The notes under the pieces are model-generated. The model was not told the DNA's origin and did not search any database. It saw only the letters and a program-made list of their open reading frames with translations. A DNA stretch of 64,000 nucleotides from contig CM073195.1 of assembly GCA_037042915.1 (NCBI GenBank), forward strand, positions 4,154,001 through 4,218,000, given 5' to 3'. The DNA is from Auricularia sp. M13 (lineage: Eukaryota > Basidiomycota > Agaricomycetes > Auriculariales > Auriculariaceae). This document shows positions 2,765 to 55,950 of the stretch, in pieces. Numbering within the stretch: the stretch's first letter is position 1; every line of letters begins with the position of its first letter. A program made the translations under genes and the position numbers.

Positions 2765-4952
2765 CTACTCGAAGATATCCCAAACTCGTATGACGTCCCT
2801 GGACAAAGCGACCAGAGTTTTTCCGTCGGGGGAAAATTCCAGACACATGTTAGGCTCCAATACGCACTCCAGTGGCATTCCAACAGGTTTCCAAGTCCCG
2901 GTCTCCCATATGCTGATCATGTCAACAAATAGAGACGCAACGTACTGGCCGGAAGGGGAGACAGCAACACAGCAAACGCTGCCCGGATGTCCATGCAGGC
3001 CTTTCAGCTCGCGGATGTCCAAAGTGCGCTCGTACTGCATAGATCGAGTGCTCCATATATTGACATCTCCGTTCAAGGAGCCGGTGACGATGTGCTCGCC
3101 GTTGGGAAAGAAACAGACACAGGTTTGATACCGCGGCACGCCCACAGCTGCCACCAGCTTTCCAGTCGGAAACTGCCAGAGGAAGAGTTCATTGCCGCAT
3201 GACAGTGTCACAACGTGCGCGCCTGTTGGCGAGAATACCGCATTAATCACGGGGGCCGTGTGGCCGACGAGTGGTTTGCCGATGGGTTCCCCTGTAGTGG
3301 TGTCCCAGAAGCAAACTGATCGCATATCGGGTGTTCGAGAGGTAACACATTTTGCGTCAGGGGAAAAGGTCGGAAATCGCCACTTTCCCGTGAAAGGGAC
3401 TGGTGGGCCACACATCTCGCCAGATGTCGCGTCCCACCATATTACTTCAGACTCGCTGGCAGCAGCAATTTTCTGACCATCGCGAGACACGGCCAGGCAA
3501 CCGTACGAATCGCGTCTCGTCATCGGTCCGACTACGATATGACCGGACGCGATGTCATATATGGAGATGGTGGTTGTCTTCTTCTCAAATATGTCGACTG
3601 CAATACGTTGTCCGCACGGCATGTAGGTAAAAGTCATTAGGCGCTTCGCATAGGTTATTGCTTCGGACTCGCAAAGGGGCTCAATGATTCGGGCTCCTGG
3701 GAGCTCAGAAACAGTCAGGAAGTGTTGTTGAAGGATCTCACCTGGTAACTCGCTGTACAGCTGCATAAATGATGAGATATGATCAAACCGCGGAAGGCAA
3801 ACTCACTCTGAGAGCGTCCATAACTGTCTTCATCGTCGGTCGGGTTCTGGGCTCGTAGGCCCAGCAGCGATTGCAGATATCCCACCATGCATGGCTAATC
3901 GAGACGAAACCATCTTTTGCCGTGGGCCGCGGTGGTAGTTTGCCAGAGTGGACATAGTGCATGACGGCAAACTCGTTCAGCTCGGCCCACGGAGCCTGCT
4001 CAGTAAGCGCCTGAAAAAACTGAGCATAAATGCCACAGAGAACGTGAGCGGCACACCTCTAAGATAAGCATGCCAAATGCCCAAATATCAGTCTCACGCG
4101 TCTTCGAACGACGACGTGGGTGACCGGCCGAGTCTTGTAGTAGCTCAGGTGCGGCGAAGCGAACTGTGTACATTGCGCGAATGCCAATGGCGGTTGTTGC
4201 GCTGGACTTGGCCTTCTCGACGAACGTGCTCAGACCGAAGTCTGCGAGGAGAGCGTCGCCGAAATCGGATATCAAGACATTCGCCTGGAAATGTACAGTG
4301 TAAGAATGACACTACGTGCAGTTTCTATACCCACGCACGCATTTGAGGTCTCCGTGAACGAGGCCTTTGTCCGAATGGAGAAAGTCTACCGCCTCGGCAA
4401 CTTGGAGAATCTGTACGGGAGCGGTTAACAGTAAGATCAATGCGGATTGTGCAATTGCAGTTTACTCACCAGTTTTTTTGCGATCGATGCACTTATTCGC
4501 CTTCAGGTAATCCAAAAGGTTTCCTTTTTCCATGTATAGAGAAACGATCGAGGTCTCTAGCCCGATGTCGGCAGTTCCGATGAAGGGAGCAATGAAAGGA
4601 TGCCGGCGCGACACTTGGCGTGCAATCTTCAATTCGCGATGCAGGAGCTAGGACATAACCGTTAGACATCATCCATCCATTGGCAGGGCAGCCTGCCAGT
4701 GACACACCATTTTCTCGTTATCATCGAGCACGGTCTTAAAGACTTTGACGGCGACGACCCAGGAATCGTTGTTGTGGACCATGTTTCCCACAATGATCTT
4801 GGCCGTGCCCCCAGAGGCGACCGCCTCGAACGATGCGATATCGATCGTAAAGGGCGCGCCGTCGAAGAAGTGCGCGGCAACGGGCATGTCTGCGCGGAGA
4901 GTTAATACAGACCCGCGCTCACAGTCCGCCAGCACGCACCTGGACGAGCCAT
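2765..4952 (-). CDS. TKL kinase-WD40 fusion protein K1 (one-base frameshift)
   Basis: Exons read 4940-4952 (13 nt, MARP), 4708-4889, 4470-4647, 4339-4410, 4057-4284, 3807-4010 and 2765-3760. Kinase features in order: a glycine loop variant (ASGGTAKIIVG), the VAVKVF lysine, the HRELKIA helix, the catalytic loop VHGDLKC, LADFGLS and the RFAAPELL APE motif. The C-terminal half starts at the family signature YMPCGQRIAV and carries seven WD40 blades ending IRVWDIFE. The HRD arginine is glycine, so this is a non-RD kinase. Exon 3 is one base longer than in all five paralogues because of a seven-A run near its 3' end (T7 on the + strand around 4473-4479), which breaks the frame before the catalytic loop. 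This is either a real lesion or a homopolymer assembly error. The gene is divergent from the small gene at 5386 and convergent with the M35 remnant. Confidence 0.8.
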
Positions 4953-5385
4953 GGTCGATACCTTGCGCGAGTTGGGGGTTACGAGTCACGGCTGGCGGAC
5001 GGTGCTGGTAGCGAGCGAGGGGAGGAGGCCAACGTTCAGCAAGCAAACAAATACCCGCCCAAATTCCGCTAACCGGCCACAACGGCCTCTATGTATCAGT
5101 CCGGGATTCTATGGCGGTCCTAGATGCAGAGCTTTTCCACTCCCGGCGATGACTGAACGTTGCAGTTGTCTTCCGCGCGCACGCGGGTCACTGCCCCTGC
5201 GCGAACTCGTTGAGTCGTTCATGTTGAGTTATCAAGTGCAGGTCGAACGCGACCCCGTATTTGCCTTTACTCCCGGTGGGCGCTACTGTCAGGGAGTGGG
5301 CGGCTGTCAGAGTGGGTCATTGCCTGCAGGTGCGCACTGGGCGATCGTTTACTCACCTCTTGATCTCAACCCACCACCACCAACT

Positions 5386-5821
5386 ATGATTCGGAACGAA
5401 GACGCGCCGCTGCCGCCGCCGTACTCCTTGCACGGCGTCAGCGATTCGGGTCGAGGGCAGGCGGAACCTGCGACCTTCGCAGGACGCATCCAGTCGAGTC
5501 ATGCGTCTGACCCGGGTAAGAAGGCGGGCTTGAAATTGCGCACGCTCGCCGCGAAACTCGGCTGCGGCGGACGGGACTCAGACTCGCAGCGGGCGGATTC
5601 GGAGCTGCGCGAGCAGCTGGTGCGCTCCGAGTCGATTCATCCTTCGTCGGAGCTCTGACATCATCGGCCAGCGGATTGAGCGGCAGGCGCGCATTGATCG
5701 GCAGGCGCGCATTGATCGGCGGGCCCGCATGGACGTGCACGGGGATAGGCGCAGAGCGAACGACACCGTGACGGACGATTTGCCGCTCATCGCCCGAGGC
5801 GGTGGGATAATTCTCGGCTAG
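5386..5821 (+). CDS. small hypothetical protein with a PPPY motif and basic RQARID repeat
   Basis: Two exons, 5386-5619 and 5672-5821, joined in phase across a 52-nt intron (gtgcgc..ctctgac..ggccag), give 127 residues. The N-terminus has an Asp-Ala-Pro-Leu-Pro-Pro-Pro-Tyr stretch, a possible WW-domain ligand. The C-terminal exon encodes a charged helix-like segment built from a six-residue repeat (RQARID, RQARID, RRARMD) that follows an 18-bp tandem DNA repeat at about 5690-5725. No catalytic motif is visible and I do not recognise the family. It shares a promoter region of about 430 bp with K1, which is transcribed the other way. Confidence rests on the clean intron and uninterrupted phase. 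Confidence 0.5.
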
Positions 5822-11200: not shown

Positions 11201-11395
11201 TGCGGAGACGATGCGCCGGCAGCGGTTGCGCATGCGCCGCAACGCCCGTCCGCGACAGACCAAACCGCGCCGCCGGTCGCGTTGCTCGCTGTCTGCCATC
11301 CTGCTCTCTATTGCCGCCTTGTTTGTCGGGATGTTGAATCGTGTTGCTGACTCTTCCGTGCGCGTCTGCGTAGGTAACGGCAACAACGGCGGCAA

Positions 11396-11441
<46 letters not shown>

Positions 11442-12432: not shown

Positions 12433-14538
12433 ATGCTTGTGGCCGCGCGGACGTTCGATGGAGTACCATTCACAATCGACATCCCATCCTTCACAGAGGT
12501 CGCCACTGGAGGGACAGCCAAGATCATTGTGGGAAGGATGGTCGACCACAATCGTTCCTGGGACGTCGCGGTCAAAGTCTTCAAAACCGTGCTTGACAAG
12601 ACCGAGAAAATGGCGTGTGCTCTTCATTAGATAATTCTTGTGGCTTACCAGAAGTGCAGCTGCTGTACCGTGAACTGGCGATTGCGCGGCAAGTGTCGAG
12701 ACGGCATCAGTTCATTGCGCCGTTCATCGGAACCGCCGACATCGGTCCGGAGACCTCGATTGTGTCCCTCTACATGCAGAACGGCAACCTCTTAGATTAC
12801 CTGAAGGCAAACAAGGGAGCTGATCGCAAGACACTGGCAAGTCAGCTCGCAGGCAGTTTCCAGTCCATCTCATCTGCTCCCATCCAGATCATTCAGGTTG
12901 CCGAGGCTGTCGTGTTTCTTCATTCGGGCGAAAGGGTCGTTCACGGCGATCTAAAATGCGTACGTCTGTGCGACTGGCGGATGACAATATGACACTGAAG
13001 AACAAACAGACAAACGTGTTGATATCCGATTCCGGCAATGCTCTCCTCGCAGACTTTGGCCTCAGCACCTTCATCGACTCCAGCATAAAGACAGCAACTG
13101 ATGCCCGTATGAAATACACTCTTCGATTTGCGGCGCCGGAGCTTCTGCGCGACACAGCGGGCAGCCCTGCGCATCAGCGCTCCAAAACCCGCGAGACTGA
13201 TGTTTACGCCTTCGGGATGCTCGTACTCGAGGTGGAGTTTACCATTGCGCTCTGGTAGCCGTGCTCATACCCAGCAGGCGCTCACTGAGCAATCCCCGTG
13301 GTTCGGTCTGCACGACTTGGCCGTTATAAAACTTGTTGACTCTGGAGCCATACCTTCGAGACCCACAGATGGGCCGTTTGTCTCGTTCAGTCACGCATGG
13401 TGGGATATCTGCAAGTCTTGCTGGAGCCATGAATTTAACCGACGACCATCCATGCATTCAGTCCTCAATGGTCTGAGGGTGAGTTTACTATAATCCCCTG
13501 CGTTTCATTCCAACCTCATGATTTCACCAGCTGCACAGTCAGCGACGTGGTGAGATTACTTGGCAATGCTTTTGGATTGTTTCTCAGCTCCCAGGAGACC
13601 GAATAATTGAACCCCCTGGCGGGCTACCTGACAATGATCTCATATCGACGTTTACGTACATGCCCTGCGGACAACGCATCGCAGTCGGCACGTGGATATA
13701 CAACCAGCGCGAATCGGATTATCTCACGACCGTCGCCATATATGACATCGCGTCCGGTCAAACCGTAGCTGGACCGATGATGAAGCTCAGTCATCTTCTT
13801 AATTGTCTGGCCGTGTCTCCCGATGGTCGGAGAATTATTGCTGCAACCGATTATGAAGTCATCTGGTGGGACGCAACATCTGGCGAGCTGTGGGACCAAT
13901 CAGTGCCTACCCCGCAAGACATCTCGGCGTTTCTTACCTTTACCCCCGACGCGGAATGCGTTGCCTCTCGAACACATGATAGGCAATCAATTTACTTCTG
14001 GAACACCACTACAGGGGAACGTGTCGGCGAACCGCTCATCGGCCACACAGGATTGGTGGAAGACCTGGTTTTCTCGTCAACCGGAACCCACGTTGTGACA
14101 TTATCCTACACCAACGGACTCCTCCTCTGGCAGTTTCGGACAGGCAAGCTCGTGGCTGCGGCCCCCGTGCCGTGTCAGTCCTGCGTCTGCTTCTTTCCCA
14201 ATGGCGAGCATGTCGTCGCAGGCTCAGAGGACGGAATCATTCGCATATGGAGCACTGGCTCACTGCAGCTCGAGCGCACCCTGGACAGCCTTTGCGTGGA
14301 GGATCCAGCAAACGACTCGCAGTACATTTGGCAAGTTGCTGTATCGCCTTCGGGCAGGTACATTGCATCTGCTTCCGATGACAGGATCACCATATGGGAG
14401 ACTGAGACTGGCAGGCCGTTTGGAAGGCCACTGGAGTGCGACATGGAGTTTGTGAATCGTCTGGAATTCTCCCCCGATGGAAAAACTCTTGTCGCTTCGA
14501 GTAGCAGGGCCATACAAGTTTGGGATCTCTTCGAGTAG
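12433..14538 (+). CDS. TKL kinase-WD40 fusion protein K2 (intact, two GC-AG introns)
   Basis: Exons 12433-12612, 12660-12836, 12888-12959, 13010-13231, 13278-13478 and 13531-14538 give 619 residues with no frame break. Kinase motifs: ATGGTAKIIVG, VAVKVF, YRELAIA, VVHGDLKC, LADFGLS, RFAAPELL, DVYAFG. The WD40 part starts after a linker at YMPCGQRIAV and has seven blades ending IQVWDLFE. The HRD arginine is glycine, while the catalytic Asp, the DFG Asp and the VAVK lysine are all present, so it could be active. Introns 1 and 2 begin GC (gcgtgt, gcaagt) where K1 and K3 have GT, so splicing efficiency may be reduced. It lies downstream of, and in line with, the secreted repeat-protein gene. Function is unknown; a sensor kinase with a propeller ligand-binding domain is one plausible reading. 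Confidence 0.85.
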
Positions 14539-14540
14539 CA

Positions 14541-15575
14541 TTCATGGTGGAACTGTACTTACACGATGTATATGAAGGAGGTATACATGTCTGAAATCCT
14601 GCACTACCGTGACGCAGCAACGCCAACGCACCACCGACTGCGCCACATCACTGCAAGGCGAAATGAGGATGCCGGCCTGCGAGTCCTTCCCGTCCATGTT
14701 GGCGTCGAAGAAGTCAGAGCATAGCGTCAGGCGTCCCGCTTGCGCGCGCTGCACGTAGCCCGCGCTGCACGCCAGCCCGTGGCAGCGGATCTCCGTAGCA
14801 CACGCGTATGCGTATTTGCTGAAGGATGTGCGGCCCAGCGCCGCAAAAACGCGTCGGAGGGCGGCGTGCTGCGCTGCCACGAGGTACCCGAACGACACTA
14901 TGTAGCGCTGCGGAGAATTCGAGTTGGCCGCGAGGTAGGTTGCGGCGCCCGTCAGCAGGGCGTCGGCAGTGGTCGCTGCTGCAGATATCACGGACTTCTC
15001 CTCGACGGAGCCACCAGTAGAAGTCGCAAGTGAGGCGGGCTGCTCCTCTGGGGAAACAACTGGAAACTGTCGCTTGACCTGAGAGACAGGATTATTCGAC
15101 AGCGTCACGACCTCCTCGCGTTCGTTGGTGACGTGGAAAAACCGGTCGTATGGGCGGCATCTTCGCAGCGTGCCGGCCGTGTGAGTGCGTACGGCGGGTA
15201 GCGACGCGGCTGTGGCAAAAGCGAGGCAGTTAAGAGCACTGTTACAGGCTGCCGGTGTTCGCTGAATCCAGCAGGGATCACGGGGCGAAGGATCAGAAGA
15301 CGGGTGACTGGCAATGGCTTTGTATCGTCCGCTCTCATCCACGACGGAGCAGCTCTGACAGCAGCTCTAAGACTAGTAATTACACGAAGATCATGTCAGC
15401 CGCAGTACCCGAGATGCAGAAGACAGTTGACGCACTTAATGAAGATGACCGCAAAAATCGCTGATGAGTTCGTCGAGACTGGCCCTGCCAGTGGAATTCT
15501 CAAACGACGGTGAACGCAGACGAATGGTCGAGTGTTTTAGGTGTACTGACGCTGTGCGCTCACGCTGGCGATTTT
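14541..15575 (-). repeat. arm B of the large inverted duplication
   Basis: Reverse complement of the arm at 1086-2760 without the transposable element. Near the outer edge both arms share a block of more than 100 nt with almost no change (about 1086-1250 against 15410-15575). The arms are separated by about 11.8 kb containing K1, the small PPPY gene, the secreted repeat gene and K2. Confidence 0.8.
14620..15270 (-). pseudogene. M35 (peptidyl-Lys metallopeptidase-like) remnant B
   Basis: A long minus-strand frame contains segments recognisable from the relatives: LAFATAAS of the signal peptide, TADALLTGAATYLAAN, an IVSFGY segment, a Cys-X-Ala-Gly region and GKDSQAGILIS. The ATG found in remnant A is GTG here, the propeptide is mostly missing, and the position equivalent to HLxTH reads SPCSD, so neither metal-binding His is kept. 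It is a decayed copy; the long open frame is what is left of the peptidase half. Confidence 0.7.
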
Positions 15576-16099
15576 ATGACAGGCAGTCGCTGTGGGATGC
15601 CTTAGCTGGCTTTGATCACAGGGATGTCTGGAATTATTTACTTGTTGTAAGGACAATGCTTGACGCGCTCACGAGATAATTGTGTTTGTGCATGGAGCTC
15701 TGACGAGGCCAAGGTCAGGTCCATCGGCAAGATCCGGTGCACGGACCGCTTTTGCTTGCTGTTGCCCGTCCCCGCGTCTGTATCTCCTCAAAGGGTATCT
15801 AAAGCCTAGCGGATCCCACTGGCTGAACGGCGCGTCCTGTCACGTGGGTTGTTTGCGCCAAAATCTGCCGCGCTGCTCTCCGCCCACTGGCATCCGTGTC
15901 ACGCGCCGACTGAAGGACAAGCCTTGCTCATGTTTCGCGGATTCCATTCCCCCGCCACGCCCTCGTAGGAACGTTAATTTTGGAGTGATGGCCACCTTGA
16001 CCTCCTGCTCGTTTTCTTCTCTACGCGTACCAGACATTGACGCGTCGGCGGCTGGACCAGGAAGTTGGCTATTTTGGTGCAGATGTATCATTGGCCAGC
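15576..16099. other. intergenic, nothing recognised
   Basis: No supportable gene. A TCACGTGGG E-box-like hexamer occurs near 15840, without further context to call it regulatory. Confidence 0.4.
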
Positions 16100-17527: not shown

Positions 17528-19621
17528 ATGCTTATTTCCGCACAAACGTTCAAGGGTGTACGATTCTCTATCGACATTCCATCCTTCAGAGAGGTCGACT
17601 CTGGAGGGATAGCCAAGATTCTTGTGGGAAATCTGGCCGCCAACAAACAGCCTTCCGGGGCCGTCGCAGTTAAAGTCTTCAAAACCGTGCTCAATAAGAC
17701 TGAGAAAATGGTGTGAGATTCATCAAATTATGCCTCTAGCTTACCAGGATTTAGCTGTTGTATCGTGAACTGGCGATCGCGCGACAAGTGTCGGGACGGC
17801 ATCCTTTCATTGCGCCGTTCATCGGAACCGCCGACATCGGTCCGGAGACCTCGATTGTTTCCTACTACATGAAGAACGGCAACCTCTTGGATTACCTGAA
17901 GGCAAACAGGGACGTTGATCGCAAGAAACTTGTAAGGCAGCTCTCGGGCCGTTTCCATTTGCATCAATCTCACCTGCTTGCATCGAGATCATTCAGGTTG
18001 CCGAGGCTGTTGTATTTCTCCATTCGGGCGAAGGGCTCGTTCACGGCGAACTCAAATGTGTACGTCCGTGCGGAAACTGCATGCATCAGCAGTCTCATGC
18101 TGTAGATTGCCAGGCGAATGTCTTGATCTCAGATCTCGGGGACGCTCTCCTCGCAGACTTCGGCCTGAGCACGTTCGTCGAGAAGGCCAACTCCAGTGCA
18201 ACCACGGACACCAACATTCCCTTAATGTACACTGTTCGCTTCGCCGCACCCGAGCTACTGCAAAATGCGGCCGGTCACCCGCATCGTCGTTCTAAGACGC
18301 GTGAGAGTGACATTTACGCCTTCGGCATGCTCGTGCTGGAGGTATGCGGCCTTTTTATCTGTGGAATTTTGCTCACCTTTCTCAGGCGCTCACCGAGCAG
18401 GCTCCGTGGGTCGAACTGAGCTGTGTTGCTGTCATACACCATGTCGACTCTGGCAAACTACCTCCACGGCCTATGACACGATATGGTTTCGTCTCCATCA
18501 GCCACGCATGGTGGGATATATGCAGACGCTGCTGGGCCTATGAAGCCAGTAGCCGACCAACAATGAAGACAGTGTTAGATGCTCTCAGAGTGCGTTTACC
18601 TTCCGCGCCCAATCCAATCTCACTAATTTCGCAGCTGTATAGTCAGCTACCAGGTGAGACTCTTCAGCAATGCTTTTGGATGGTTTCTCAGCTCCTAGGA
18701 GACCGAATCATCCAGCCGCCTGGCGGGCCCGATGTCCATGATATATCAACTTTTGCCCACATGCCCTGCGGACAACGTATCGCGGTCGCCACGTGCACAC
18801 CAAGAAATCGCCCATCGGATTCTTCAAAGACGATCTCCATATATGATATCGCCTCCGGTCAAATTGTCGCTGGACCGATGACGAGACTCGGGCGTTCTCA
18901 TAATTGCCTGGCCGCCTCCCGCGATGGTCGAAGAATTGCTGCTGCGAGCAGTTCTGAAGTAACCTGGTGGGACGTAGCATCTGGCTCAAAGTGTGGGCAA
19001 CCAGTAACTCTGAAGAGAGATACCCAGTGGCCGTGCCTTACCTTTTCCCCCGACGCGAAATGCGTTGCCTCTCGAACACCTGACGGGCGATCGATTTGCC
19101 TCTGGGACACCACTACAGGGTTTGCCATCGGCGAACCTCTATTGGGGCACACAACAGCATTCTCGCCAACAGGTACCCACGTTGTGACGTTATCACACCG
19201 CCACCTTTTCCTCTGGCAGTTTCCAACCAGAAAACTCGTTGCAACGGCCGCTGAGCCGGACCAATCCTGTGTCTGCTTCTTTCCTAACGGCGAGCGCATC
19301 GTCACTTGGTCAGAGGATGGAATTGTTCGTATATGGGACACAAGATCACTGCGGCTCCGGAGACTCTTCCACACGGCGGAGGTTCGAAAAGGTGATTCGC
19401 AGCACATTATACGTCTTGCAGTCTCGCCGTCGGGCAAGTACCTTGCATCTGCTATTCCCCATGGCAAGATCAGCATATGCGAGACCGAGACTGGGAAACC
19501 TGTTGGTATGCCACTGGAGCACGGAATGCCGTTTGTGTCTTGTCTGCAATTTTCCCCCAGTGGTAGGACTCTTATCGCTTCGTGTCAGAAGGTCGTGCGA
19601 GTTTGGGATCTCTTCGACTAG
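17528..19621 (+). CDS. TKL kinase-WD40 fusion protein K3 (HGE catalytic loop)
   Basis: Exons 17528-17710, 17755-17931, 17988-18059, 18114-18341, 18386-18589 and 18635-19621 read through in phase to 616 residues. Motifs: DSGGIAKILVG, VAVKVF, YRELAIA, LVHGELKC, LADFGLS, RFAAPELL, DIYAFG, then HMPCGQRIAV and a seven-blade WD40 propeller ending VRVWDLFD. In the catalytic loop the base-forming Asp of HGD is Glu (GAA at 18048-18050), so phosphotransfer is probably weak or lost although the Lys and DFG remain. One blade is shortened between GEPLLGHT and FSPTGTHVV compared with K1 and K2. The splice donors are all GT. It could act as a pseudokinase or be an early stage of decay. Confidence 0.85.
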
Positions 19622-22573: not shown

Positions 22574-23666
22574 TCAGAGCTTACCCAACAGCGGGTTGGT
22601 CTCCGCGTAGTACTCATAAGAGTCGGCGTTGTCGACGGAGAGATCGGGGAAGTTCTCCGCGAGTAGCTTGGAGTTCTCCTGTCCGAGGGCCCAGTGGCCC
22701 GTGTGCGCGACCTCGTCCCAGTGGGTCCCAAGATGGAGAAGGACGCCAGCCTGGGAGTCGGTGCCATTGAGGGGCAGGTCGAAGAAGCCCGGGCACGCCC
22801 AGATATGGCCCTTGCTGTCCGTCGTGGTGAACGCGTCCGAGTCGACCATCCCCGCGCACGTCTCCGCCTCGAGGCACTCGTACGACACGTTGAACACGAA
22901 CGAGCCCTTGATGAGGTTCGTGTAGGTCAGCAAGGCCCTCGCGTGGCGGCTTGCGGAGTAGGTGCCGAACCACGTCGTGTAGTGCGTCCCATTCGCCGGC
23001 TCGTACAGGATGGAGCGCACCGCTTCGTGCACCAGACCGTCCGCGCCCTGCGCCGCCTTCTGCAGGACTAGCTGCTGCGCGGCCGAACAGTCCTTGACGG
23101 GAACAATGTACCGCTCGAGCCCGGGCTTGACGAGCGCGCCGGAGAGCGTAGCCGAATGAGGCGACTCGACATCGGCAGTGAGCTCCTGGACGCCATCGGC
23201 GGTGACAGCGTAAAACACGGGCGAGGGTTTGATATTGTAAGTGCCAGCGCCGCTCTCCGTGAAGTCGTACGCATCGGCAACTTGATTTTCAGTCAGCATT
23301 CCATTGGGAGATCGGCGACTGATGATACATACGCGAGTGGTCGACCGTGACGCTCTGGCCCGGTTCAAGGGTAGTGAACGTCTTGTCCGGACCCGAGAGG
23401 TACTTGGCGAAGAGGCCCTGGAAACGGGGAGCCTTGCCGTCGCTGGACGAAATGGTGAACACATCCGTCGGTCCCTTCGAGAGCAGCGTGCCGGGGTGGT
23501 TGAGCAGGTTCACAGCCTCGTCACCGGTGTTCGTCACCGTCGTAGTAACCAGTGAGTCCGCGCGAGTGGCGACATTATCCGCACCAGTAAGGGACACAGT
23601 CAGGGCTGGGCCAGCGGAAACGGCTGCTGCAGAGAGCGCGACTGCGAGGAGGACGGCAGAGAGCAT
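22574..23666 (-). CDS. M35-family pseudo-metallopeptidase C (catalytic residues replaced)
   Basis: Exons 23333-23666 and 22574-23280 across a 52-nt intron give 346 residues. A signal peptide (MLSAVLLAVALSAAAVSA) and a propeptide-like domain precede the region homologous to peptidyl-Lys metalloendopeptidases (M35, aspzincin): THYTTWFGTYSASR, FVFNVSYECLEAE, HIWACPGFF, NADSYEYYAE. In active members the metal site is HExxH plus an Asp in a GTxDxxYG-type motif. Here the residues are HLGTH and TGHWALG, so the catalytic Glu is Leu, the Asp ligand aligns with His and the Tyr with Leu. Proteolysis is therefore unlikely. The frame is intact and the paralogue at 25972 shows the same Glu-to-Leu and Asp-to-His changes, so a retained non-peptidase role is possible. 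It is secreted by prediction and divergent from that paralogue. Confidence 0.8.
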
Positions 23667-29825: not shown

Positions 29826-31250
29826 GCTGACAAGACTCTTCCAGGTGTTTTGGTCGTGTACAGTACTGCAAACTAGGATGCTGTGGAAAAGGGTCAAGTT
29901 AAAAACATTGTTTTTAACAGGCTGTTTAAAACACGTTTTAAACACCCAGCGGCCGCTGGAAACATGTTTTTAACTCAGTATGTACATATCATTAAGCTGG
30001 GATGCTGCATGAGACCACTCAATGTGCGGTCTAATACATGTTTTCCCACATGTTTTGACTTCATTCAGTCTTCCAACACCGTCTGTGATTACTCAGCAGC
30101 TGGATACACCTCAGACTGGGGGTGAGGGGTGAGATTTAGCCACGGACACTGAGAGTGGCATTTCAAACCGTCAACTATCACTTTCTGCACACTGTGTGGT
30201 CGAAAAATCGCAGCTGGATAACATACAGACAGTCTCAGCTTCCAGCTGCTGATTGTACTGTCTATAAATGGCACATATGTTGTTAACAGTGTTTTTAACG
30301 GCATGTTTTAAACACATTGTGTTCTAAACTCGTTAAGAAGTCCTGGCGACTTTTTAACAGCATCCTACTGCAAACATGCTTGTTGCTGCAGAGTTCTTCA
30401 ACGGTGAACCGTTCACAATCGATATTCGATCGGAGGAGGCGGTCGCCTTCGGGGGCACCGCTCAAATCTTTGTGGGGGATGTCGTCTGGGACAATCGTTC
30501 AATCGCCGTCGCCGTTAAAGCCTTCAAAACCATGCTCAGTGTCACCGAGAAAACGGTATGCTCTCTATCTGTCAACTATAGACTCTGCTTATGCATCAAT
30601 AATCCAGCTTCTTAGTCGCGAACTCGAAATTGCACGTCAAGTCTCGTTGCGCCATCCATCGATACTAGAGTTTCTCGGAACCGCCAAAATGGGTTTGGAG
30701 ACGTCCATCGTATCTCTGTACATGCGAAATGGAAACTTGCTCGATTACCTCAAGCTGAACCAAGACGTCGATCGCAAGAAACTGGTCCGTCTGCATTTCT
30801 CCCTCTGCGACCTTGATCAAACTTACGATCGCTGCCATAGATTCTTGAAGTCGCGGAAGCCGTAAACTACCTTCATACGGTTGAGGGGCTTGTTCATGGA
30901 GATCTCAAATGTGTACGTCTACGGTGATGTTCAATGCTGCTCACTTCGGTCTGAAATATGCACAGGCCAATGTACTGATCTCGGACTTCGGCGTTGCCCT
31001 GCTTGCGGATTTTGGACTGAGTACATTCATCGAGAAGGCTCAGTCCAGTGAAACAACTGCGACTGACGCTCGTACGAAATATACTCTGCGCTTCGCAGCG
31101 CCCGAGCTTTTAAATGATTCAGCTGGCCTCCCTGAACGTCGTCGCTCCAAGACACGGGAGACCGATGTATACGCCTTCGGGATGCTTGTGCTAGAGGTAC
31201 GCTCGTCATTTTCCCGCGAAGATAAGCTCATCTTCGCCAGGCAATTACTG
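29826..31250 (+). repeat. left arm of the K4/K5 inverted duplication
   Basis: From about 29826 (CTGACAAGACTCTTCCAGG) to beyond the fifth kinase exon, the sequence is nearly identical, in reverse complement, to 38500-39440. The element at 29874-30367 is absent from the other arm. Similarity drops sharply within the next exon and is low in the WD40 half, so the conserved part is mainly the kinase domain. This is consistent with recent gene conversion or with a partial duplication. Confidence 0.8.
29874..30367. mobile_element. hAT-type non-autonomous element 3 (494 bp), at the K4 start codon
   Basis: Ends TAGGATGCTGT and ACAGCATCCTA are flanked by the perfect 8-bp repeat CTGCAAAC at 29866-29873 and 30368-30375. 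The right copy touches the ATG at 30376. The homologous site in K5 has CTGCAAAC only once (reverse complement at 39391-39398). Subterminal GTTTTTAAC/GTTTTAAAC repeats match elements 1 and 2. It separates the K4 coding start from its ancestral promoter. Confidence 0.9.
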
Positions 31251-32508
31251 GGCAGTCCCCATGGTTTGGGGTGAAGGAAGACCTTTCCGTCCTACTGCGC
31301 GTTCACTCAGGCCATGTACCTCCTCAGCCCACGATATACGGCACATTTTCCTCTATCAGTCACGAGTGGTGGGACGCACTGAAGAAGTGCTGGAGCTGTG
31401 ATCCCGTTAGCCGACCACCTATGAAAACAGTGCTGGATGAGCTCACAGTAAGTTCCGGACTATCTTGTCTCAACATGTAGCCTAATCGTGTCTTCAGATG
31501 CACAGTCACCTATCAGGTGAGCTTTTATAAAGCTGGATCGGTTATCTGCTAAGATTCTTCAAGTCCGAATCTTCGATCCGCTTAAAGACCTTCGCGAAAT
31601 CCAGGCCGCTTCGTACATGCCCTGTGGACGACGTCTTGTTGTGATGTCGAGATCTAATGACTGGGAGACAGTCGGTCGCGTGGCCATTTTCATATTTGAC
31701 ATGGCCTCCCGCGAAACAGTCGCTGGGCCTGTGCATGGACCTCCTGCCTTTGATTGGACCGGCCCCCTCCTCTTCGTCACTCCCGACGGCCAGCAAATCA
31801 TTCAAAGTTCTGCATCTGTTATCACCCGGTGGGATTTAGCGTCTGGCGTTTGCCTCAGCCAAGCCGGATTGAACGAGAGTGTGTGCTGTCGTGCCATTTC
31901 TCCCGATGCAATGGATTGCTGGCCATGAAGAGTACAATGGAGACGGAACATCAGTCTTTTTATGTGCATCTAGCGCAGAGGAACCCATCGGTCATCAACT
32001 GGGCCGACACACGAGCCTCCCGTCATGTATGGCATTCTCTCCAGACGGTAGCCACGTTGTCTCTGCCGCTTCAGCATCCTACGTCGACGAACTCTTCCTC
32101 TGGAATATTTCCACCGGAGAACGGCTGGCAGCTACAACAGATCTCGGCCTGCTAACCTGTGTTTGTTTTCTTCCCAGCGGAGGACGCATCGTCTCTGGAT
32201 TTTACGACGGAACAGTGCGACTATGGAACGCCAGCACGATGAAACTCGAGCACATCTTCGCAGATGCTACGCAGGCAAAATTCAACGATCGCTACATCAT
32301 GTTCGTCGCTGCGTCGCCTTCGGGCAAGTACGTTGCGTCTGTCTCCCGCGGAGGGATACTCTGGATGTGGCATACCGATAACTGGAAGCCTGTTGTGGTG
32401 CCAGAGACCATGAAACTATCCCCAGTTTCGCTTGAATTTTCCCCCACTGGGACGAGTCTTATGTGTTGCACTGCTTTTGGTATATAAATTTGGGATCTAG
32501 TCGAATAG
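30376..32508 (+). pseudogene. TKL kinase-WD40 fusion K4 (transposon at the start, frameshift, early stop)
   Basis: Exons equivalent to K5: 30376-30555, 30608-30784, 30841-30912, 30966-31196, 31241-31447, 31498-31516 and 31564-32508. The kinase half is complete (VAVKAF, SRELEIA, VHGDLKC, LADFGLS, RFAAPELL). In the WD40 half an extra base near 31908 shifts the frame after ISPDA; the matching frame resumes as WIAGHEEYNGDG. A TAA at 32485 then stops translation eight codons before the family's C-terminal IWDLVE and the old stop at 32506-32508. Element 3 sits directly before the ATG. Three independent lesions make this a likely pseudogene, although a truncated kinase could still be produced if transcribed. 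Confidence 0.8.
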
Positions 32509-37259: not shown

Positions 37260-39390
37260 TCACTCAACTAAATCGTAAATCCGGAGGCTGCCAGGCCAGG
37301 AGAGAACAATCAGACTTTTCCCACTGGGTGAAAATTCGACAGAAGTCAAGTCTCCTTGGACATGCGGCATCCCTATAGGATCCCCGGTCTTTGTGTCCCG
37401 CAACTGGAAGATGTCATCCGTGAAGACCAACGCCATGTACTTGCCCGAAGGTGAGACAGCGACGAACGTGACATATCCCAATGAGATGCAATAGTAGAAG
37501 GAGCGCTCGAGCGCCAGCGTTCTGGCGTTCCATATGCTGACTTTCCCATCGCGCGAGCCCGTGGCAATGTGCTCGCCGTCGGGAAAGAAACAGAGACAAG
37601 ATATCGCGCCAGGCTCCATCGCAGCAGCCAGTTTCTTGCCGCTCGGCACATGCCAGAGAAGCAATTCCCCGCGTTCCTCGGCGGACGATGCTGAGACGAC
37701 GTGCGTGCCGGCTGGGGAAAATGCCACACAGCAGACGTCATGTGTGTGGCCTGTCAGCGGACCTATCAACCTCCCTGCGCTGGCGTTCCAAAAGCAGATT
37801 GTGCAGTCCCGGAAACGGCACACCACCCATTTGGTATCTGGAGAAAAGGCACAAATATCTGCCTTAAGAAATGTGGGCTCGCTATGCAAAGCACGCGTTG
37901 CTACGTCCCACCGGGCGATAGCGTTAGAGCACGCAATAGCAATCTGCTGGCAATCCGCAGACACAGCCAAAAGCCGGGGTATAAAAGTAGGTCCGCGTAT
38001 TGGTACGACGACAGTCTGACAGGAGGCTATATCGTATATCCATAGGCACGGCGGCGCCACCTGTATGCCGTTGATATAGCCGTCACCCCCGGACGTGGTC
38101 ATTGTAAGACGTTGTCCGCAGGGCATGTATACAGCGGCTACGATGTCGCCATGCGGTCCATTGGGAGAAGCCAGGTTCCGGGCTGGGGAAAGCTCAGATA
38201 CTGGAGAGTGTCCATCGGGCAATTGTGGAAGTGCTCACTCGGTAGATGACTGTGCAGCTGCCGGAGGAATTGGTTAGGCTGAATCAAGCCACTGGGTTAC
38301 TGGACAGTTCAAACTCACTATGAGATCGGATAGCACGGTTCTCATCGGTGGTCGACTACTGGGCTCGTAGCTCCAGCATCGCTTCAAGACATCCCACCAC
38401 GCATGACTGATAGAGGACAGTGCGCCGTCCATGGTGGGCTGAGAAGGTACGTTGCCTGATTGTACGCGCAGTAGGACGCCAATGTCCTCCTTCACCCCAA
38501 ACCATGGAGACTGCCCAGTAATTGCCTGGCGAAGATGAGCTTATCTTCGCGGGAAAATGACCAGCGTACCTCTAGCACAAGCATCCCGAAGGCGTAGACA
38601 TCGGTCTCCCGTGTCTTGGAGCGACGACGTTCAGGGAGGCCAGCTGAATCATTTAAAAGCTCGGGCGCTGCGAAGCGCAGAGTATATTTCGTACGAGCGT
38701 CAGTCGCAGTTGTTTCACTGGACTGAGCCTTCTCGATGAATGTACTCAGTCCAAAATCCGCAAGCAGGGCAACGCCGAAGTTCGAGATCAGTACATTGGC
38801 CTGTGCATATTTCAGACCGAAGTGAGCAGCATTGAACATCACCGTAGACGTACACATTTGAGATCTCCATGAACAAGCCCCTCCACCGTATGAAGGTAGT
38901 TTACGGCTTCCGCGACTTCAAGAATCTATGGCAGCGATCGTAAGTTTGATCAAGGTCGCAGAGGGAGAAATGCAGACGTACCAGTTTCTTGCGATCGACG
39001 TCTTGGTTCAGCTTGAGGTAATCGCGCAAGTTTCCATTTCGCATGTACAGAGATACGATGGACGTCTCCAAACCCATTTTGGCGGTTCCGAGAAACTCTA
39101 GTATCGATGGATGGCGCAACGAGACTTGACGTGCAATTTCGAGTTCGCGACTAAGAAGCTGGATTATTGATGCATAAGCAGAGTCTATAATTGACAGATA
39201 GAGAGCATACCGTTTTCTCGGTGACACTGAGCATGGTTTTGAAGGCTTTAACGGCGACGGCGGTTGAACGATTGTCCCAGACGACATCCCCCACAAAGAT
39301 TTGAGCGGTGCCCCCGAAGGCGACCGCCTCCTCCGATCGAATATCGATTGTGAACGGTTCACCGTTGAAGAACTCTGCAGCAACAAGCAT
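37260..39390 (-). CDS. TKL kinase-WD40 fusion protein K5 (intact)
   Basis: Exons 39211-39390, 38982-39158, 38854-38925, 38570-38800, 38319-38525, a 19-nt exon starting CTGCACAGTCAT near 38260, and a last exon ending at 37260. Kinase: FGGTAQIFVG, VAVKAF, SRELEIA, VHGDLKC, LADFGLS, RFAAPELL, DVYAFG. The propeller begins YMPCGQRLTM and has seven blades with WD-like ends (IYDIAS, RWDVAT, FWNASA, LWHVPS, IWNART, LRDTKT, IYDLVE). No frame break is seen. The start is MLVAAEF at 39390; an in-frame 5' extension exists but has no good ATG. K5 keeps the single CTGCAAAC target site that carries element 3 in K4. With K4 and K6 it has an extra intron in the linker that K1-K3 lack. Confidence 0.82.
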
Positions 39391-39440
39391 GTTTGCAGTA
39401 CTGTACACGACCAAAACACCTGGAAGAGTCTTGTCAGTAT
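38500..39440 (-). repeat. right arm of the K4/K5 inverted duplication
   Basis: Nearly identical in reverse complement to 29826-31250 without element 3. The arms are about 7.2 kb apart and enclose the K4 WD40 half, PHO84 and the K5 WD40 half. Confidence 0.8.
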
Positions 39441-42416: not shown

Positions 42417-43919
42417 ATGCTCATCGTAGCTTTCAGTCATCGCAGCGTTGCTGGCGAGCTAGCAATTATCAACGACATCGCCCATTGCGCCATTTCTAGC
42501 GCTGCTTCGAAATGGAACGAACTGCGAGCCTATGCACGCCGGCTTCCGATGGAATTATTTCTGCGCTGCTGGTCCTACCTCGACGTTTCCGATTTGCTTC
42601 GAGCTACGAGGGTCTGCAAGGCGTGGCACGATGCTATCAAGAACGCATCAGAGCTTTGGACCTGCCTCGACCTGCTCGCATGGAATCGGCCACCACGCTC
42701 TGCACTGCCCGACTTGTTGGTTCGATCGGGGAATCGCAAACTGTCGCTACGCGTCAACGTGCGGAGTCCAGACGACCTGGTATTTCTGTTCAGCTGTTTG
42801 CAACCCCAGGCATCCCGTATCTGGCTGCTTTATATAGATTGCTTCTCGCGCATCCAGTTTGTGGAGGAGCTGCCATTCAGATTCGGCATGCCCGCGCTGC
42901 AGTCGCTGACTGTACGGATGGCCTGCGTTCTTCCCAACGACTTCTTGGCTGGAAACGCCCCCCTCCTTCGCGAGGCCAACTTTCACACCCTCCAACTTCC
43001 TTCGAAATGCTCTGCAGCGCTCGAGCATCTCACCTCCCTCACTGCGGATGAAATCTACGACCTGGAATATCGCGCCGTGCCGAATCTCACATTCCTCGAA
43101 GTACGAAACGCCGGCGCGATCAGAGCTTTGCCGCACGTACCTCGAAGGAGCCGCATCCGCCACGTCGTATTCTCTGGCTACCGCGGCACGTATGCCGAGT
43201 TGGATGATGCAGGCTATACGCGTTTGCCTAGGCTGGAGATCGGTCTTTTCGACTTTCCCGTCCTGTGGGAATTACTGGAGTCCTGGGCGCATGTCTCTGT
43301 AAGCCCCACTCTGGAGATCTTGGCAGGCAATTGCGTCGCGTTGACGATTGCGCCTTACAATAATTCGCTGACGTTCCGCTTGGCCAACGTCTACGAGACC
43401 GAATTGCAGCGGTTGTGCCGGCGTGATTATCTCGCGAATTTGGTTGGCATCGCCTTCCCTCCACCCGGGGATTTTCTCGTGCAACTACTCACCTACTATC
43501 ATTACAACCGGTCCACGGCAGTCAAGCTGCCGGAGAAATACCTCAGGCTGCCCCCAGAGACACTACCGAACCTTCTGACGTACACCGTTTATCTCGCCCC
43601 GCCCACGTCACCCTCACTGTTCGACTTGAACATCATGTATCGTTGCGGACAGCTGCGGGCGCCACGTCTTCGAACACTCATTGTCATGCGCAGCCCGTGC
43701 TCTGGCGCCAATGCGGAGGATGTCGCGCCGCTCTGTCCCTCGCTTTTGGCGTTATTCATTGCCAAACACCTCCGATTCGACGCAGAGGTCCTGCAGGAAC
43801 TCGTACTCGACGGTGTCCGGTTCGCGGAATACGACGACGGGGGCGCTGCAATGGACGTGTTGGAGAGCTACGTGCGCACGATCACGATTCGTACAACTGC
43901 CCGTCAAGGGGCAAGTTGA
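42417..43919 (+). CDS. F-box protein 1
   Basis: A single-exon frame of 500 residues. The F-box lies at about residues 43-90: RRLPMELFLRCWSYLDVSDL, then VCKAWHDAI and the LWTCLDL that follows in many basidiomycete F-box proteins. The rest is Leu-rich with irregular LRR-like spacing. Such proteins act as substrate adaptors in SCF ubiquitin ligases by binding Skp1 through the F-box; the target is unknown. The first ATG (42417) gives the longest product and a residue count before the F-box similar to the other two family members here, but a TATA-like element lies almost on top of it. The alternative Met at residue 45 would cut into the F-box. Confidence 0.8.
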   Translation: MLIVAFSHRSVAGELAIINDIAHCAISSAASKWNELRAYARRLPMELFLRCWSYLDVSDLLRATRVCKAWHDAIKNASELWTCLDLLAWNRPPRSALPDLLVRSGNRKLSLRVNVRSPDDLVFLFSCLQPQASRIWLLYIDCFSRIQFVEELPFRFGMPALQSLTVRMACVLPNDFLAGNAPLLREANFHTLQLPSKCSAALEHLTSLTADEIYDLEYRAVPNLTFLEVRNAGAIRALPHVPRRSRIRHVVFSGYRGTYAELDDAGYTRLPRLEIGLFDFPVLWELLESWAHVSVSPTLEILAGNCVALTIAPYNNSLTFRLANVYETELQRLCRRDYLANLVGIAFPPPGDFLVQLLTYYHYNRSTAVKLPEKYLRLPPETLPNLLTYTVYLAPPTSPSLFDLNIMYRCGQLRAPRLRTLIVMRSPCSGANAEDVAPLCPSLLALFIAKHLRFDAEVLQELVLDGVRFAEYDDGGAAMDVLESYVRTITIRTTARQGAS

Positions 43920-46947: not shown

Positions 46948-48420
46948 CTATTCGATAACCAGGGAACCGACGAAGCTACCCAGCACTTCGAGCGTGTCGC
47001 CCTCATCATCGTCTAGACCAACGACGCCTACCGCACGGTCGATATAGAGCTCAGGTAAACAAGGACGCTGTATAACCAAGGTCCCCGTGAGGAAACCCAC
47101 GAGGTCAAGCGGACAAATGGGTTCGATGTCGCGTGCTCCTGCATCACACTTGAATTCGACGCGCCGCAGCATCGGCGCCTGGAGTTCGCCACATTGCTCG
47201 AGGATATCGGAATCTAGAAGCGAGCCGCCAGCTCTCGCGCCGCAGACAATGGTGAGAGTATCGAGATTCGGGAGTGGCGCGCTCGGGAAGAGCACGCGGT
47301 GCAGCTCGGCGTTGGAGCGCTCGTCGACGGCGAAGATGGTGCCGCTGGACTCGGAGAAGTCGCGAGGGATGCTGAGGACCGTGATAGCATCGAAGAGGCC
47401 TGCTGTCGCAGGCGAGCGAAAGACTGCCTCTAGTCGGCTAACAGGAAACGTCTCGCTCGAAAAGAAGACGCCGGCCGCAGGTTCTGAGCTATCGATGACG
47501 GGAGTGATTCCGATGCTAATTTTTCGGCCGGTCACAGTGATTTGGAGCGCGAGGGCGGGCGAGTTGGACCCTTGCAGTGCGTACGTGATCACCTCCGCGC
47601 AACAGCCTTCCACTTCGAGTCGCTCGAGTCGCATGTAACCCATGTCGCGCAGTGCCTTTCCTGCGCCGGAAGCGTACGATTTGAGCGTTAGGAGCTTGAG
47701 AGGGTGGGATAATGGCAAAGTCGGCAGGTCCAGTGCGTCTGAGGATTCGTCCACGTGTAGCGACCGCAAGTTCGGGAGCTTGGGAAGGAGTGTCCGCGGG
47801 TAGCGACCGGGACGGTGAAGTGTGAGTTTTGTAACGCTGAGAAACGTTGGAAACGAGTCGAAACTGAAGGGCTGGCCGCACAGCCGAAGGACCTGGAGCT
47901 GCGGCGCATGTCCGTCGAACAGTGAGGATCCAGGATGTGTCTCTGAGGCGTAATATGAGAGCTCTTGGAGTGCAGGCGCGGGAGCATTCAGGATGGCGTA
48001 CTGATGACCATAGCATGTGGGGCTATGGTCGATTTGCAGACTGCGCACGCGGGGCATATGAGGGGATAAGCATATGTCGAGGATTCGGGCCTCGAAGCTG
48101 CTTCGGACAAAGGCAGATACAAGGAGATGGTGGTCGTAGGATAGTTCCAGAACGTGCAGCAGCTGGGCGGGTTTGAGCAATGGAGGGGTGCTAAGATCGA
48201 GACGGGCCCAAAGGCGCGGGCAGCGGTAAATCAGGCGTTTCCACGTGCAACAAACTGTTGAAGCTAGGAGAAGTGCAGCAGGAGGCAAATATGAAAAACA
48301 GCGCAAACGGATTTCGACAGGCAGCAGGCTCAGGAGGTCGTTGCGTATGTTCCATAGGCGTAAGTCGGGAACAATAGCCCGTTTTGCCGCGCTTAAGAGC
48401 TGATTAACGTGTTCTAGCAC
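46948..48420 (-). CDS. F-box protein 2 (start codon unresolved)
   Basis: An open frame of about 490 codons with an F-box near residues 30-75: SLLPVEIRLRCFSYLPPAAL, STVCCTWKRLIY, LWARLDLSTPP. The body is Leu-rich and aligns along its length with F-box protein 3 (59183-60640), including the last residues (GSFVGSLVIE against NSCVGAVFVQ). No in-frame ATG exists at the 5' end. The first usable codon at 48420 is GTG, and an in-frame stop lies not far upstream. A sequence resembling an intron end (tcttttattatag at about 48431-48443) suggests an upstream first exon, which I could not place with matching phase. Otherwise the start has been lost. Confidence 0.75.
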   Translation of the reverse strand: MLEHVNQLLSAAKRAIVPDLRLWNIRNDLLSLLPVEIRLRCFSYLPPAALLLASTVCCTWKRLIYRCPRLWARLDLSTPPLLKPAQLLHVLELSYDHHLLVSAFVRSSFEARILDICLSPHMPRVRSLQIDHSPTCYGHQYAILNAPAPALQELSYYASETHPGSSLFDGHAPQLQVLRLCGQPFSFDSFPTFLSVTKLTLHRPGRYPRTLLPKLPNLRSLHVDESSDALDLPTLPLSHPLKLLTLKSYASGAGKALRDMGYMRLERLEVEGCCAEVITYALQGSNSPALALQITVTGRKISIGITPVIDSSEPAAGVFFSSETFPVSRLEAVFRSPATAGLFDAITVLSIPRDFSESSGTIFAVDERSNAELHRVLFPSAPLPNLDTLTIVCGARAGGSLLDSDILEQCGELQAPMLRRVEFKCDAGARDIEPICPLDLVGFLTGTLVIQRPCLPELYIDRAVGVVGLDDDEGDTLEVLGSFVGSLVIE

Positions 48421-48443
48421 GCCCGGGTGTCTATAATAAAAGA

Positions 48444-49450: not shown

Positions 49451-49458
49451 TATAAAGG
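49451..49458 (+). promoter_or_regulatory. TATA box of the small Cys-rich secreted protein gene
   Basis: TATAAAGG 53-60 bp before the ATG at 49511, with a CT-rich stretch (CCCTCTCACCTGTTCCC) between them. Confidence 0.6.
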
Positions 49459-49510
49459 CCCCTACTTGTGACATGCTCACCCTCTCACCTGTTCCCAACA
49501 CCTTTCTCGA

Positions 49511-53730: not shown

Positions 53731-55950
53731 ATGGACCAAGGCTTGCCCAGTGGCAGGTACGTGGAACGTCTGCATCAGACAGCTCGCGCTGATTCTACCG
53801 CCGCGAGCAGAAGGATCGTTGACGCGCGCTACTTCAATGGCGTGGCATTTAAGATCAACCTTCAGTCAACGAAGGCAGTCGCGAGCGGAGGCTCAGCCAA
53901 AATATTTGTCGGAAATATCGAGGACGACGATCATCATTCCGTCGTCGCCGTCAAAGTTTTCAAAACCATGCTCAGTGATACCGAGACAACGGTGGGCTCT
54001 TCGATGCTGGCAGATTCTGCTTACGAATCAATCATTCAGCTCCTTTATCGCGAACTGGAAATTGCGCGTCGAGTCTCGCAGCGCCACCCGTCGATATTGA
54101 AGTTTCTCGGAACCGCGGACATTGGCCTGGAGACGTCCATAGTGTCCCTTTATATGAAAAATGGCAACCTCCTGGAGTATATCAGGGCGAATCAGGACGT
54201 TGATCGTCAGAAACTCGTCCGTTGTCTTTGTGTTTGCTACAGACGTCGCCAAAATCTCACCGTCTTTTAAACAGATCCTTGAAGTTGCCGAGGCGGTCAA
54301 TTATCTGCATACCGTTGAGGGCCTCGTCCATGGTGATCTCAAGTGTGTAAGTCTACACCACACCTCCTACAGAACTTATCGGTCTGAAGTACATACACGC
54401 AGGCAAACGTCTTGATTTCGGATCATAACACTGCTCTTCTCGCTGACTTCGGGCTCGCCACGTTTGTCGAAAAGACTGGATCTAACGCTACGACTGCTAC
54501 GGACGTCCGTAAAATGTACACTGTCCGCTTCGCGGCTCCCGAACTTCTGCTCGACTCTGCCGGGGATTCGCTTCGTCCTCGCTCAAAAACACGTGAAAGC
54601 GACGTTTACGCATTCGGCATGCTTATCCTAGAAGTAGGTCTCGTTGACTGTTCAGCTTGATGGACTCTGACGATGTGCAGGCAATCACTGAAAAATCGCC
54701 GTGGTTCGGGTTGAGCGAGTTTGCAGTCATGCAGCGTGTTACATGTGGCGAAGTTCCATCCCGACCCACGCAGGACGCTGTATTTGCCTCTATTAGCCAT
54801 GCGTGGTGGGATATCTGCAAGCGTTGCTGGAGTTATGGCTCGGTCAGCCGGCCAAACATGAAATCAGTGCTCGACGGTCTCCGAGTGAGTGCAGAGCTTG
54901 CGCTGATTTGGTTGGACTAATCTCATTCATTCATTAGCTTTCCAGTATGCGTCCACGTAAGCGATTTTCCGAGACTTGTTTTATAGTATTTCTGAGCTTC
55001 CCTCAGTCAGAAAAATCGACACGCCAGATCCTGGTGCTAAAATCGCTGCCTTTACCTGCATGCCCTGCGGACAACGAATTGCATTGCTGGTCAAACCATA
55101 CGCTTATGGGGCACGCGTCGGGCGTGGACCTACCATCCGGATATACGACATGGCATCGGGTCAGCTTGTCGCTCACCCCTTGGCCATATCCGATGGTCCT
55201 TACGATCTGCTCCTCGTGGCCGTAACCCCGGACGGTAGTCGGATCGCTGCTGCTGGAGGCCACAGTGTCCGGTGGGATGTAGAGTCTGGCACTCTGCTTG
55301 GCCAACCTGCAGCTTGCGAGGGAGATCTCGCCATGGCCTTTTCGCCCGACACCAAAAGCATTGCCACTCGGCCTTGCGTTGACGACCACTCCGTTCGCTT
55401 GATGGACGCTTCGACAGGCAAACGTAAGCGCAATCGGCTTGTCGGGCACGAATATCGCGTGCGCTGTGTGGCATTCTCCCAGGATGGCACGCGCATCGTA
55501 TCAGGATCTTGCAAAGAGATCTTTCTCTGGGATATTCAGAGTCGAAGACTGTTGGCATCTGGGATAGATCCTGCTGGAGTCGCCTGCGCCTGCTTTACTC
55601 CAGATGGACAGCGCATCATCTCTGGCACACACGACAGGCGATTCCGTATATGGTGCGCCAGTACGCTGCAGCTCGAACTCACATTGCGGCATCCCATTTC
55701 GGGTTCTCCATCTTGGCCTCTCAAGAATGTCGCTGTCTCTCCTTCTGGAACGTACATTGCAACTGCCATGGATAACACAATCTGCATCTGGGATACAGAG
55801 ACTTGGAAGCCTGTTGCATCGCCGCTGTCGCACGGTTCTGTGGTAAGGTCTGTTGAATTTTCTTCTGATGGGAGGCGTCTAGTCTCTCACAATAGATCCT
55901 CCGTAAAAATCTGGGATCTGTCTCTGGAGCATCGCATGTTATCGATGTAG
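53731..55950 (+). CDS. TKL kinase-WD40 fusion protein K6 (intact)
   Basis: Eight exons (53731-53756, 53811-53991, 54040-54216, 54275-54346, 54403-54633, 54681-54884, 54938-54956, 55007-55950) give 617 residues. Kinase: ASGGSAKIFVG, VAVKVF, YRELEIA, VHGDLKC, LADFGLA, RFAAPELL, DVYAFG. The propeller starts CMPCGQRIAL and has seven blades, with good WD-type ends (IYDMAS, RWDVES, LMDAST, LWDIQS, IWCAST, IWDTET, IWDLSL). The linker carries a 19-nt exon at the same place as in K4 and K5. All key kinase residues are present except that the HRD arginine is glycine. It lies about 14 kb from K5 and is the most diverged member, with its own first exon (MDQGLPSGR), so it is not part of a recent duplication. 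Confidence 0.88.

Follow-up and report, generated by a model that had tools for sequence, protein, structure and literature searches.

Six candidate genes in which a TKL-like kinase domain is followed by a WD40 propeller, designated K1 to K6, were examined in a 64,000-nucleotide stretch of Auricularia sp. M13 (C3:4154001-4218000, hereafter the window). The analysis covered this single genome, which comprises 52.1 Mb in 14 contigs. Contig C3 has 4,322,239 bases and the window stops 104 kb short of its end. A subtelomeric location of the cluster was considered but is not borne out: neither the final 1000 bases of C3 nor the initial 800 of contig C1 contain a telomere-repeat run.

Gene models and intron positions

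Gene models were built with a custom protein-to-DNA aligner that allows for reading frames, splice sites and frameshifts, and were then refined with a cluster member as query; the aligner had no prior input on intron places. When the K6 kinase and propeller were used as tblastn queries, they matched the other five loci with E values of 7e-27 to 2e-62, so that the similarity is not due to chance. Both searches and models place the six loci where an initial annotation of the window had seen them, with K1 and K5 on the minus strand and K2, K3, K4 and K6 on the plus strand, and the local expansion on both strands that it described is borne out (Table 1). The start codon of K6 is uncertain; the annotated position is an upstream ATG and the family start position lacks one. 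In the two window proteins scanned against Pfam, K6 and K1, matches to PF07714/PF00069 above cut-off are followed by WD40 matches; the scan also took in one relative from contig C1.

Every window gene model contains six introns (44-69 nt) at common places, namely in the N-lobe after beta-3, ahead of the helix that leads into the catalytic loop, just after HGDLKC, after the F-helix motif and twice in the linker, where the two introns flank a 19-nt micro-exon in all six genes. Conserved intron positions had been proposed before and are confirmed. The accompanying claim that K1-K3 lack a linker intron of K4-K6 was mistaken: both linker introns are present in all six genes, and the second one in K1-K3, at 45 nt a multiple of three and stop-free, is readable as coding sequence. 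Apparent kinase frameshifts of K2, K4 and K5 in the first models proved to be intron 1 after remodelling. In an alignment of 17 family members (omitting C10_293, C1_390, C1_408 and four kinases without WD40), all six sites and their phase are kept in 12 rows, given a tolerance of two columns at both linker introns (K3, C3_4131, K4, K5, K6, C1_346, C1_414, C1_806, C1_1516, C6_3181, C9_3167 and C11_2881). The remaining rows retain six sites, shifted by one base after a GC donor (K2), five (K1), four (C4_606) or three (C1_430 and C6_2206). The models of divergent loci carry spurious introns, eleven extra ones in C11_2881 and two in K4.

Because these intron sites join kinase to propeller at loci scattered over several contigs, each of K1-K6 is very probably, as far as gene models can tell, a single kinase-propeller gene, in agreement with the one fused architecture initially suggested. 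It is highly improbable that the two halves are adjacent separate genes, given that two linker introns of identical position and phase and a joining 19-nt micro-exon occur at unrelated genomic places and that the large clades of the family are identical for both halves.

Table 1. Kinase-WD40 genes and related features (window positions)
Feature	Position (strand)	Details
K1 kinase-WD40 gene	2765..4887 (-)	introns 4707-4648, 4469-4401 (alternative acceptor), 4338-4285, 4056-4011, 3806-3761, 3741-3697; micro-exon 3760-3742 (19 nt)
K2 kinase-WD40 gene	12433..14538 (+)	introns ending 12659, 12887, 13009, 13277, 13530, 13594; GC donor at intron 2, also at intron 1 at the family position
K3 kinase-WD40 gene	17528..19621 (+)	HGE for HGD; introns 17711-17754, 17932-17987, 18060-18113, 18342-18385, 18590-18634, 18654-18698
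K4 kinase-WD40 gene	30376..~32499 (+)	kinase open, propeller with frameshift and late stop; introns 30556-30607, 30785-30840, 30913-30965, 31197-31240, 31448-31497, 31517-31563
K5 kinase-WD40 gene	37260..39390 (-)	looks whole; introns 39210-39159, 38981-38926, 38853-38801, 38569-38526, 38318-38258, 38238-38183
K6 kinase-WD40 gene	53731..55950 (+)	looks whole; introns 53992-54039, 54217-54274, 54347-54402, 54634-54680, 54885-54937, 54957-55006
K6 propeller exon	54976..55950 (+)	AlphaFold model, seven-bladed WD40 propeller
K4 side of shared kinase tract	30366..31278 (+)	9 differences in 913 bases, from 10 bases before ATG
K5 side of shared kinase tract	38488..39400 (-)	same 913-base tract, inverted

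Kinase and propeller domains

The kinase motifs (Lys, alpha-C Glu, HGD, DFG, APE and a Thr-rich activation segment) are conserved, and the set is found in K1, K2, K4, K5 and K6. The Pfam kinase match of K1 starts at residue 21. Among the best 60 of 1995 phmmer chains of the kinase, EGFR, FGFR3 and ABL are mixed with CTR1, RIPK1, IRAK4 and B-Raf. HGD was detected in 25 of 26 kinase rows showing the motif (27 rows, one without it), among them those of an unrelated second kinase-WD40 clade, and the remaining row has HGE, whereas five of eight other kinases of the genome matched the search pattern and all five had HRD. Because of this difference, HGD is regarded, at the level of the aligned sequences, as a marker of these kinase clades in this genome. 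Non-RD kinases are linked to immunity in plants. As a family feature, the non-RD HGD loop holds for K1, K2 and K4-K6, but K3 has HGE; as a hint of immunity it is weak, since the unrelated clade has HGD as well.

The K6 propeller exon, the only one modelled, gave an AlphaFold model with a mean pLDDT (predicted local distance difference test) of 85 and a pTM (predicted template modelling score) of 0.85. Seven blades were read from its strand list, the outer strand of blade 7 being supplied by residues 11-15, and seven-bladed propellers are among its best fold matches; the seven WD40 blades assumed from the sequence are thus verified for K6. MPCGQR, which had been taken for a signature of the linker, instead sits within blade 1 in the K6 model and the alignment, in place of the usual SPDG turn, and the stretch from the kinase to blade 1 is a short linker. 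Mean blade-blade identity is 0.22-0.32 in the cluster genes (maximum 0.49) and 0.34-0.43 in the comparison genes, the cluster blades having drifted further from the WD40 consensus. A sensor of high-identity repeats was ruled out by the former values, and no tandem repeats were listed in the propeller exons.

Distribution and age of the family

Following propeller and kinase searches, 21 regions outside the window were modelled, and 12 of them hold fused genes whose kinase falls in the same clade; such counts are lower bounds. One of the 12, at C3:4130983-4133078 and 20 kb ahead of the window, belongs to the cluster as its seventh member and is identical to K3 at 93% of kinase and 91% of propeller positions. 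The 11 others lie on contigs C1, C4, C6, C9, C10 and C11; some are frameshifted and the propeller model of C10_293 is incomplete. The other nine regions comprise a propeller with a mere kinase remnant (C1_390), a kinase with no propeller recognised in the piece examined (C1_408), four kinases without WD40 (C8_1430, C8_1463, C8_1424 and C2_824) and three kinases of a different type, HGDIKGANVL, with WD40 (C8_1278, C8_1001 and C3_4110). The TKL-like kinase set of the source genome is expanded, which, with the short introns and the F-box and Aspzincin genes, is suggestive of an agaricomycete.

The seven cluster genes form one clade in both the kinase tree (99/99) and the propeller tree (100/99), and the contig-C1 genes form another (100/99 in each). 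As the two trees hold the same two clades, the kinase-propeller fusion is, judged by tree topology, older than both groups. Two subfamilies had been proposed for the window. Both trees recover the group of K1, K2, K3 and the seventh member with support (99/94 kinase, 100/99 propeller); K4, K5 and K6 are united in the kinase tree alone (85/74), K6 being the first branch in the propeller tree, and the linker-intron argument for the division falls away. The three loci of the second type served as outgroup of the kinase tree only, in which they branch far off (100/100).

This second, unrelated kinase-WD40 type was located at C8:1276958-1279667, C8:1000208-1002993 and C3:4109872-4112823 (L072, L073 and L071). 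At C2:823167-826415 (L065), a same-clade kinase without WD40 has a receiver-like stretch, YDLILMDIVMPRLDG, behind it on that strand, either as a separate gene or as a fusion. Between 8.20 and 8.80 Mb of contig C1 (e.g. L017, L022 and L023) lies a large array in which PF09994 (type VI secretion system Tle1-like catalytic domain, DUF2235) is combined with a WD40 propeller; 30 separate WD40 places were counted there, and the array holds most of the genome's 90 PF09994 matches. Eight of the 27 NACHT matches, with WD40 matches close by, are found at C10:3.02-3.18 Mb, which makes this the third array to pair an effector or switch domain with WD40. Given these two further enzyme-domain/WD40 arrays (Tle1-like and NACHT), the combination of any effector with a propeller may be the rule.

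Copying of the kinase module

K4 and K5 lie 7 kb apart on opposite strands, and the few differences in their shared kinase tract were counted with introns included. Outside the tract, identity falls at once to approximately 50-78% on both sides. Synonymous divergence (dS) between the two genes is 0.10 in the kinase and 1.23 in the propeller. Because protein selection cannot make synonymous sites differ twelvefold, the sequences are best read as a kinase tract copied between old paralogues by ectopic conversion or exchange. K1 and K2 show the opposite imbalance (kinase dS 1.24, propeller 0.55) and share their 3' flanks but not their 5' flanks, which together indicate that mosaicism is not confined to one pair.

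An inverted duplication (window 1020-1834 versus 14802-15636, one patch at 94%) extends the K1/K2 duplication downstream. The mutual similarity of K1, K2 and K3 starts at or a few bases from the ATG (4887, 12433 and 17528), and their 5' flanks are not shared.

Selection on the two halves

Rates of nonsynonymous (dN) and synonymous substitution were estimated by a simple counting method, with four contig-C1 genes as control group. The K6 model provided the strand map from which propeller sites were assigned to one of three classes, namely strands, top loops (DA, BC) and bottom loops (AB, CD); the face called top follows general knowledge of WD40 folds. K4 and the comparison of K3 with the near-identical seventh member were omitted from the site-class tests, which used codons free of gaps, stops and unread letters. 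In the 21 cluster pairs, dN/dS is 0.09-0.39 in the kinase and 0.30-0.64 in the propeller, compared with 0.16-0.25 and 0.27-0.40 in the six C1 pairs.

Among K1, K2, K3 and the seventh member, dN reaches 0.65 in DA and 0.77 in BC top loops, and 0.10 in AB and 0.22 in CD bottom loops. The top face evolves 3.2-fold faster than the rest of the propeller (permutation p 0.0002), against 1.7-fold in the control. Its dN/dS is 1.14 (bootstrap 0.84-1.61), as opposed to 0.36 at other propeller sites and 0.21 in the kinase, and the control top face has 0.48 (0.32-0.69). When columns near gaps were removed, the values were 1.12 (0.76-1.66) for the cluster and 0.52 (0.31-0.81) for the control. The cluster value exceeds the control value in 99.98% of bootstraps (99.45% without near-gap columns), and the ratio of top to rest exceeds that of the control in 99.4%. 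These estimates suggest that the top face in the cluster changes fast, either because it is free of most constraint or because it is diversifying, an excess over 1 being unproven.

Proposed function and alternatives

K1-K6 and their relatives may be cytosolic sensor kinases, similar to NOD-like receptors (NLRs) without the nucleotide-binding domain and subject to birth and death; we consider the chances of this reading to be about evenly balanced. An N-terminal TKL-like kinase, a short linker and a seven-bladed WD40 propeller would form one cytosolic protein, the top face of which would bind a protein ligand. Binding would relieve inhibition of the kinase or cluster it, and the kinase, presumed to be catalytically active, would then phosphorylate itself, conserved Thr residues being present in its activation segment, as well as a downstream target. 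A constant output module would in this way be coupled to a variable sensor module, as in a fungal NLR without a nucleotide-binding domain, and the family would evolve as genes duplicate and decay and as the kinase module is copied ectopically from one paralogue to another. Its putative role would lie in recognition, either of self and non-self or as a guard. The conserved kinase, the fast top-face loops and the homogenised K4/K5 kinases lend added support to such a sensor. The resemblance to birth-and-death families noted initially is supported, together with the local expansion on both strands and the decaying copies. Different stages of decay had been claimed for the copies, which is true in part: lesions are seen in K4, K1, K2 (GC donors at introns 1 and 2, that of intron 1 at the family position) and the seventh member, while K5 and K6 appear intact.

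Several observations weigh against this interpretation. The interval of the top-face dN/dS includes 1, and the cluster value drops to approximately 0.84 with dS taken from the loops themselves (0.82) or from the kinase (0.81). The loops are faster in the control group also, by the factor given above, and without near-gap columns the top-to-rest ratio exceeds that of the control in 90.5% of bootstraps. The ratio of propeller dN to kinase dN overlaps between the cluster (1.38-2.97 without K4/K5) and the C1 pairs (0.71-2.28), and the unequal dS of K1 and K2 implies that recombination blurs dN/dS ratios. Relaxed constraint would give a similar top-face signal, and the cluster blades do not show near-identical repeats of the HET-E type. 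K3, with HGE, lacks the catalytic Asp; the K4 propeller is frameshifted and also carries a late stop; in the seventh copy APE is replaced by APK and the last blade is interrupted by a stop; and in K1 an A run ahead of intron 2 is one A too long, possibly an assembly error, so that the family frame is lost if splicing does not shift to a different acceptor.

These lesions would be expected if the amplification were a dead end, in which cluster copies under relaxed constraint are turning into pseudogenes, and both the interval reaching 1 and the drift of the cluster blades from the WD40 consensus would fit. We regard this as unlikely, because the kinase dN/dS is still low, the bottom turns are under strong constraint (0.16), and K5 and K6, and very nearly K2, have preserved their splice sites and frames. 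Another possibility, on balance doubtful, is that these are ordinary signalling kinases without a recognition role, in which the propeller is a scaffold or substrate dock for endogenous partners that differ between paralogues. Propellers are common docking platforms, the WD40 domain of LRRK2 is reported to serve dimerisation and regulation, and the propellers of dispersed relatives are constrained in the ordinary way, both overall (pair dN/dS 0.17-0.40 where dS could be estimated) and on the top face (0.48). Docking alone, however, leaves unexplained the high rate limited to the top loops of one cluster, the copied tract restricted to the kinase and the decaying copies.

A more far-reaching form of the sensor-kinase reading is put forward tentatively and with more doubt than belief: the family would represent a class of receptor kinases that act inside fungal cells and lack a nucleotide-binding domain, with a diversifying top face, in which gene conversion re-supplies a proven kinase and thereby wires new specificities to one output. 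If the sensor-kinase reading is true, fungi have a kinase-output sensor family beside NLRs, WD40 sensing is separable from the nucleotide-binding switch, and the role of the expanded mushroom TKL kinases becomes testable. K4 and K5, with the same kinase and different propellers, would then constitute a natural domain-swap experiment.

Neighbouring genes

Three long F-box-like genes lie between or beside the kinase genes (window 42417-43916 (+), 46951-48420 (-) and 59183-60637 (+)). An Aspzincin M35 metallopeptidase gene (22577-23464 (-)) has a 74% paralogous inverted stretch 3 kb away at 26096-27049, and a further inverted duplication, of unassigned content, links 57181-58503 to 62700-63887.

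Comparison with known systems

The fusion of a kinase to a propeller is itself already known from PkwA and LRRK2. Such fusions are described as known in bacteria and rarer in eukaryotes, and WD40 repeats occur in 14 Dictyostelium kinases of other groups. No description of a fungal TKL-WD40 family was found among the titles and abstracts listed in a literature search whose coverage largely excluded subscription journals, and the family may carry another name. The TKL kinases of Laccaria bicolor represent a similarly large TKL-like expansion in a mushroom genome, and the word WD40 does not appear in the main text of that report (PMC2838846). In PkwA of Thermomonospora curvata and in prokaryotic kinase-WD40 proteins (PMC6113231, PMC5587647), the kinase precedes WD40 in one chain, as in the gene models of K1-K6. 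These proteins are bacterial, however, and a common propeller fold is no proof that the fusions share descent. A bacterial origin found no support in a single prokaryote contig scan with six short patterns, in which none of 14 pattern matches was a relative of the K6 kinase.

Fungal NLRs, especially the HET-NACHT-WD40 proteins of Podospora (PMC4986451, PMC12881547, PMC10197012), likewise combine an output domain with a WD40 sensor, exist in multiple copies under birth and death and have a fast-evolving sensor. PKinase is counted among the N-terminal domains of fungal NLRs, and the WD40 domains of HET-E and HET-D are reported to set recognition specificity. In the conserved-repeat class of Podospora, blades are at least 85% identical, as against 22-32% in the cluster. 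Neither NACHT nor NB-ARC occurs in the full Pfam list of K1 or among the best 25 of 34 K6 matches, and for this reason the family is NLR-like in layout and evolution yet not an NLR. Roc-COR, LRR, ANK and ARM are absent from the same matches, in which respect the family differs from LRRK2/Roco proteins. The likeness to the latter lies in a TKL-like kinase directly before a C-terminal seven-bladed WD40 propeller (PMC10135577), and LRRK2 provides a precedent in which the WD40 domain beside a TKL kinase is described as acting in dimerisation and as a brake.

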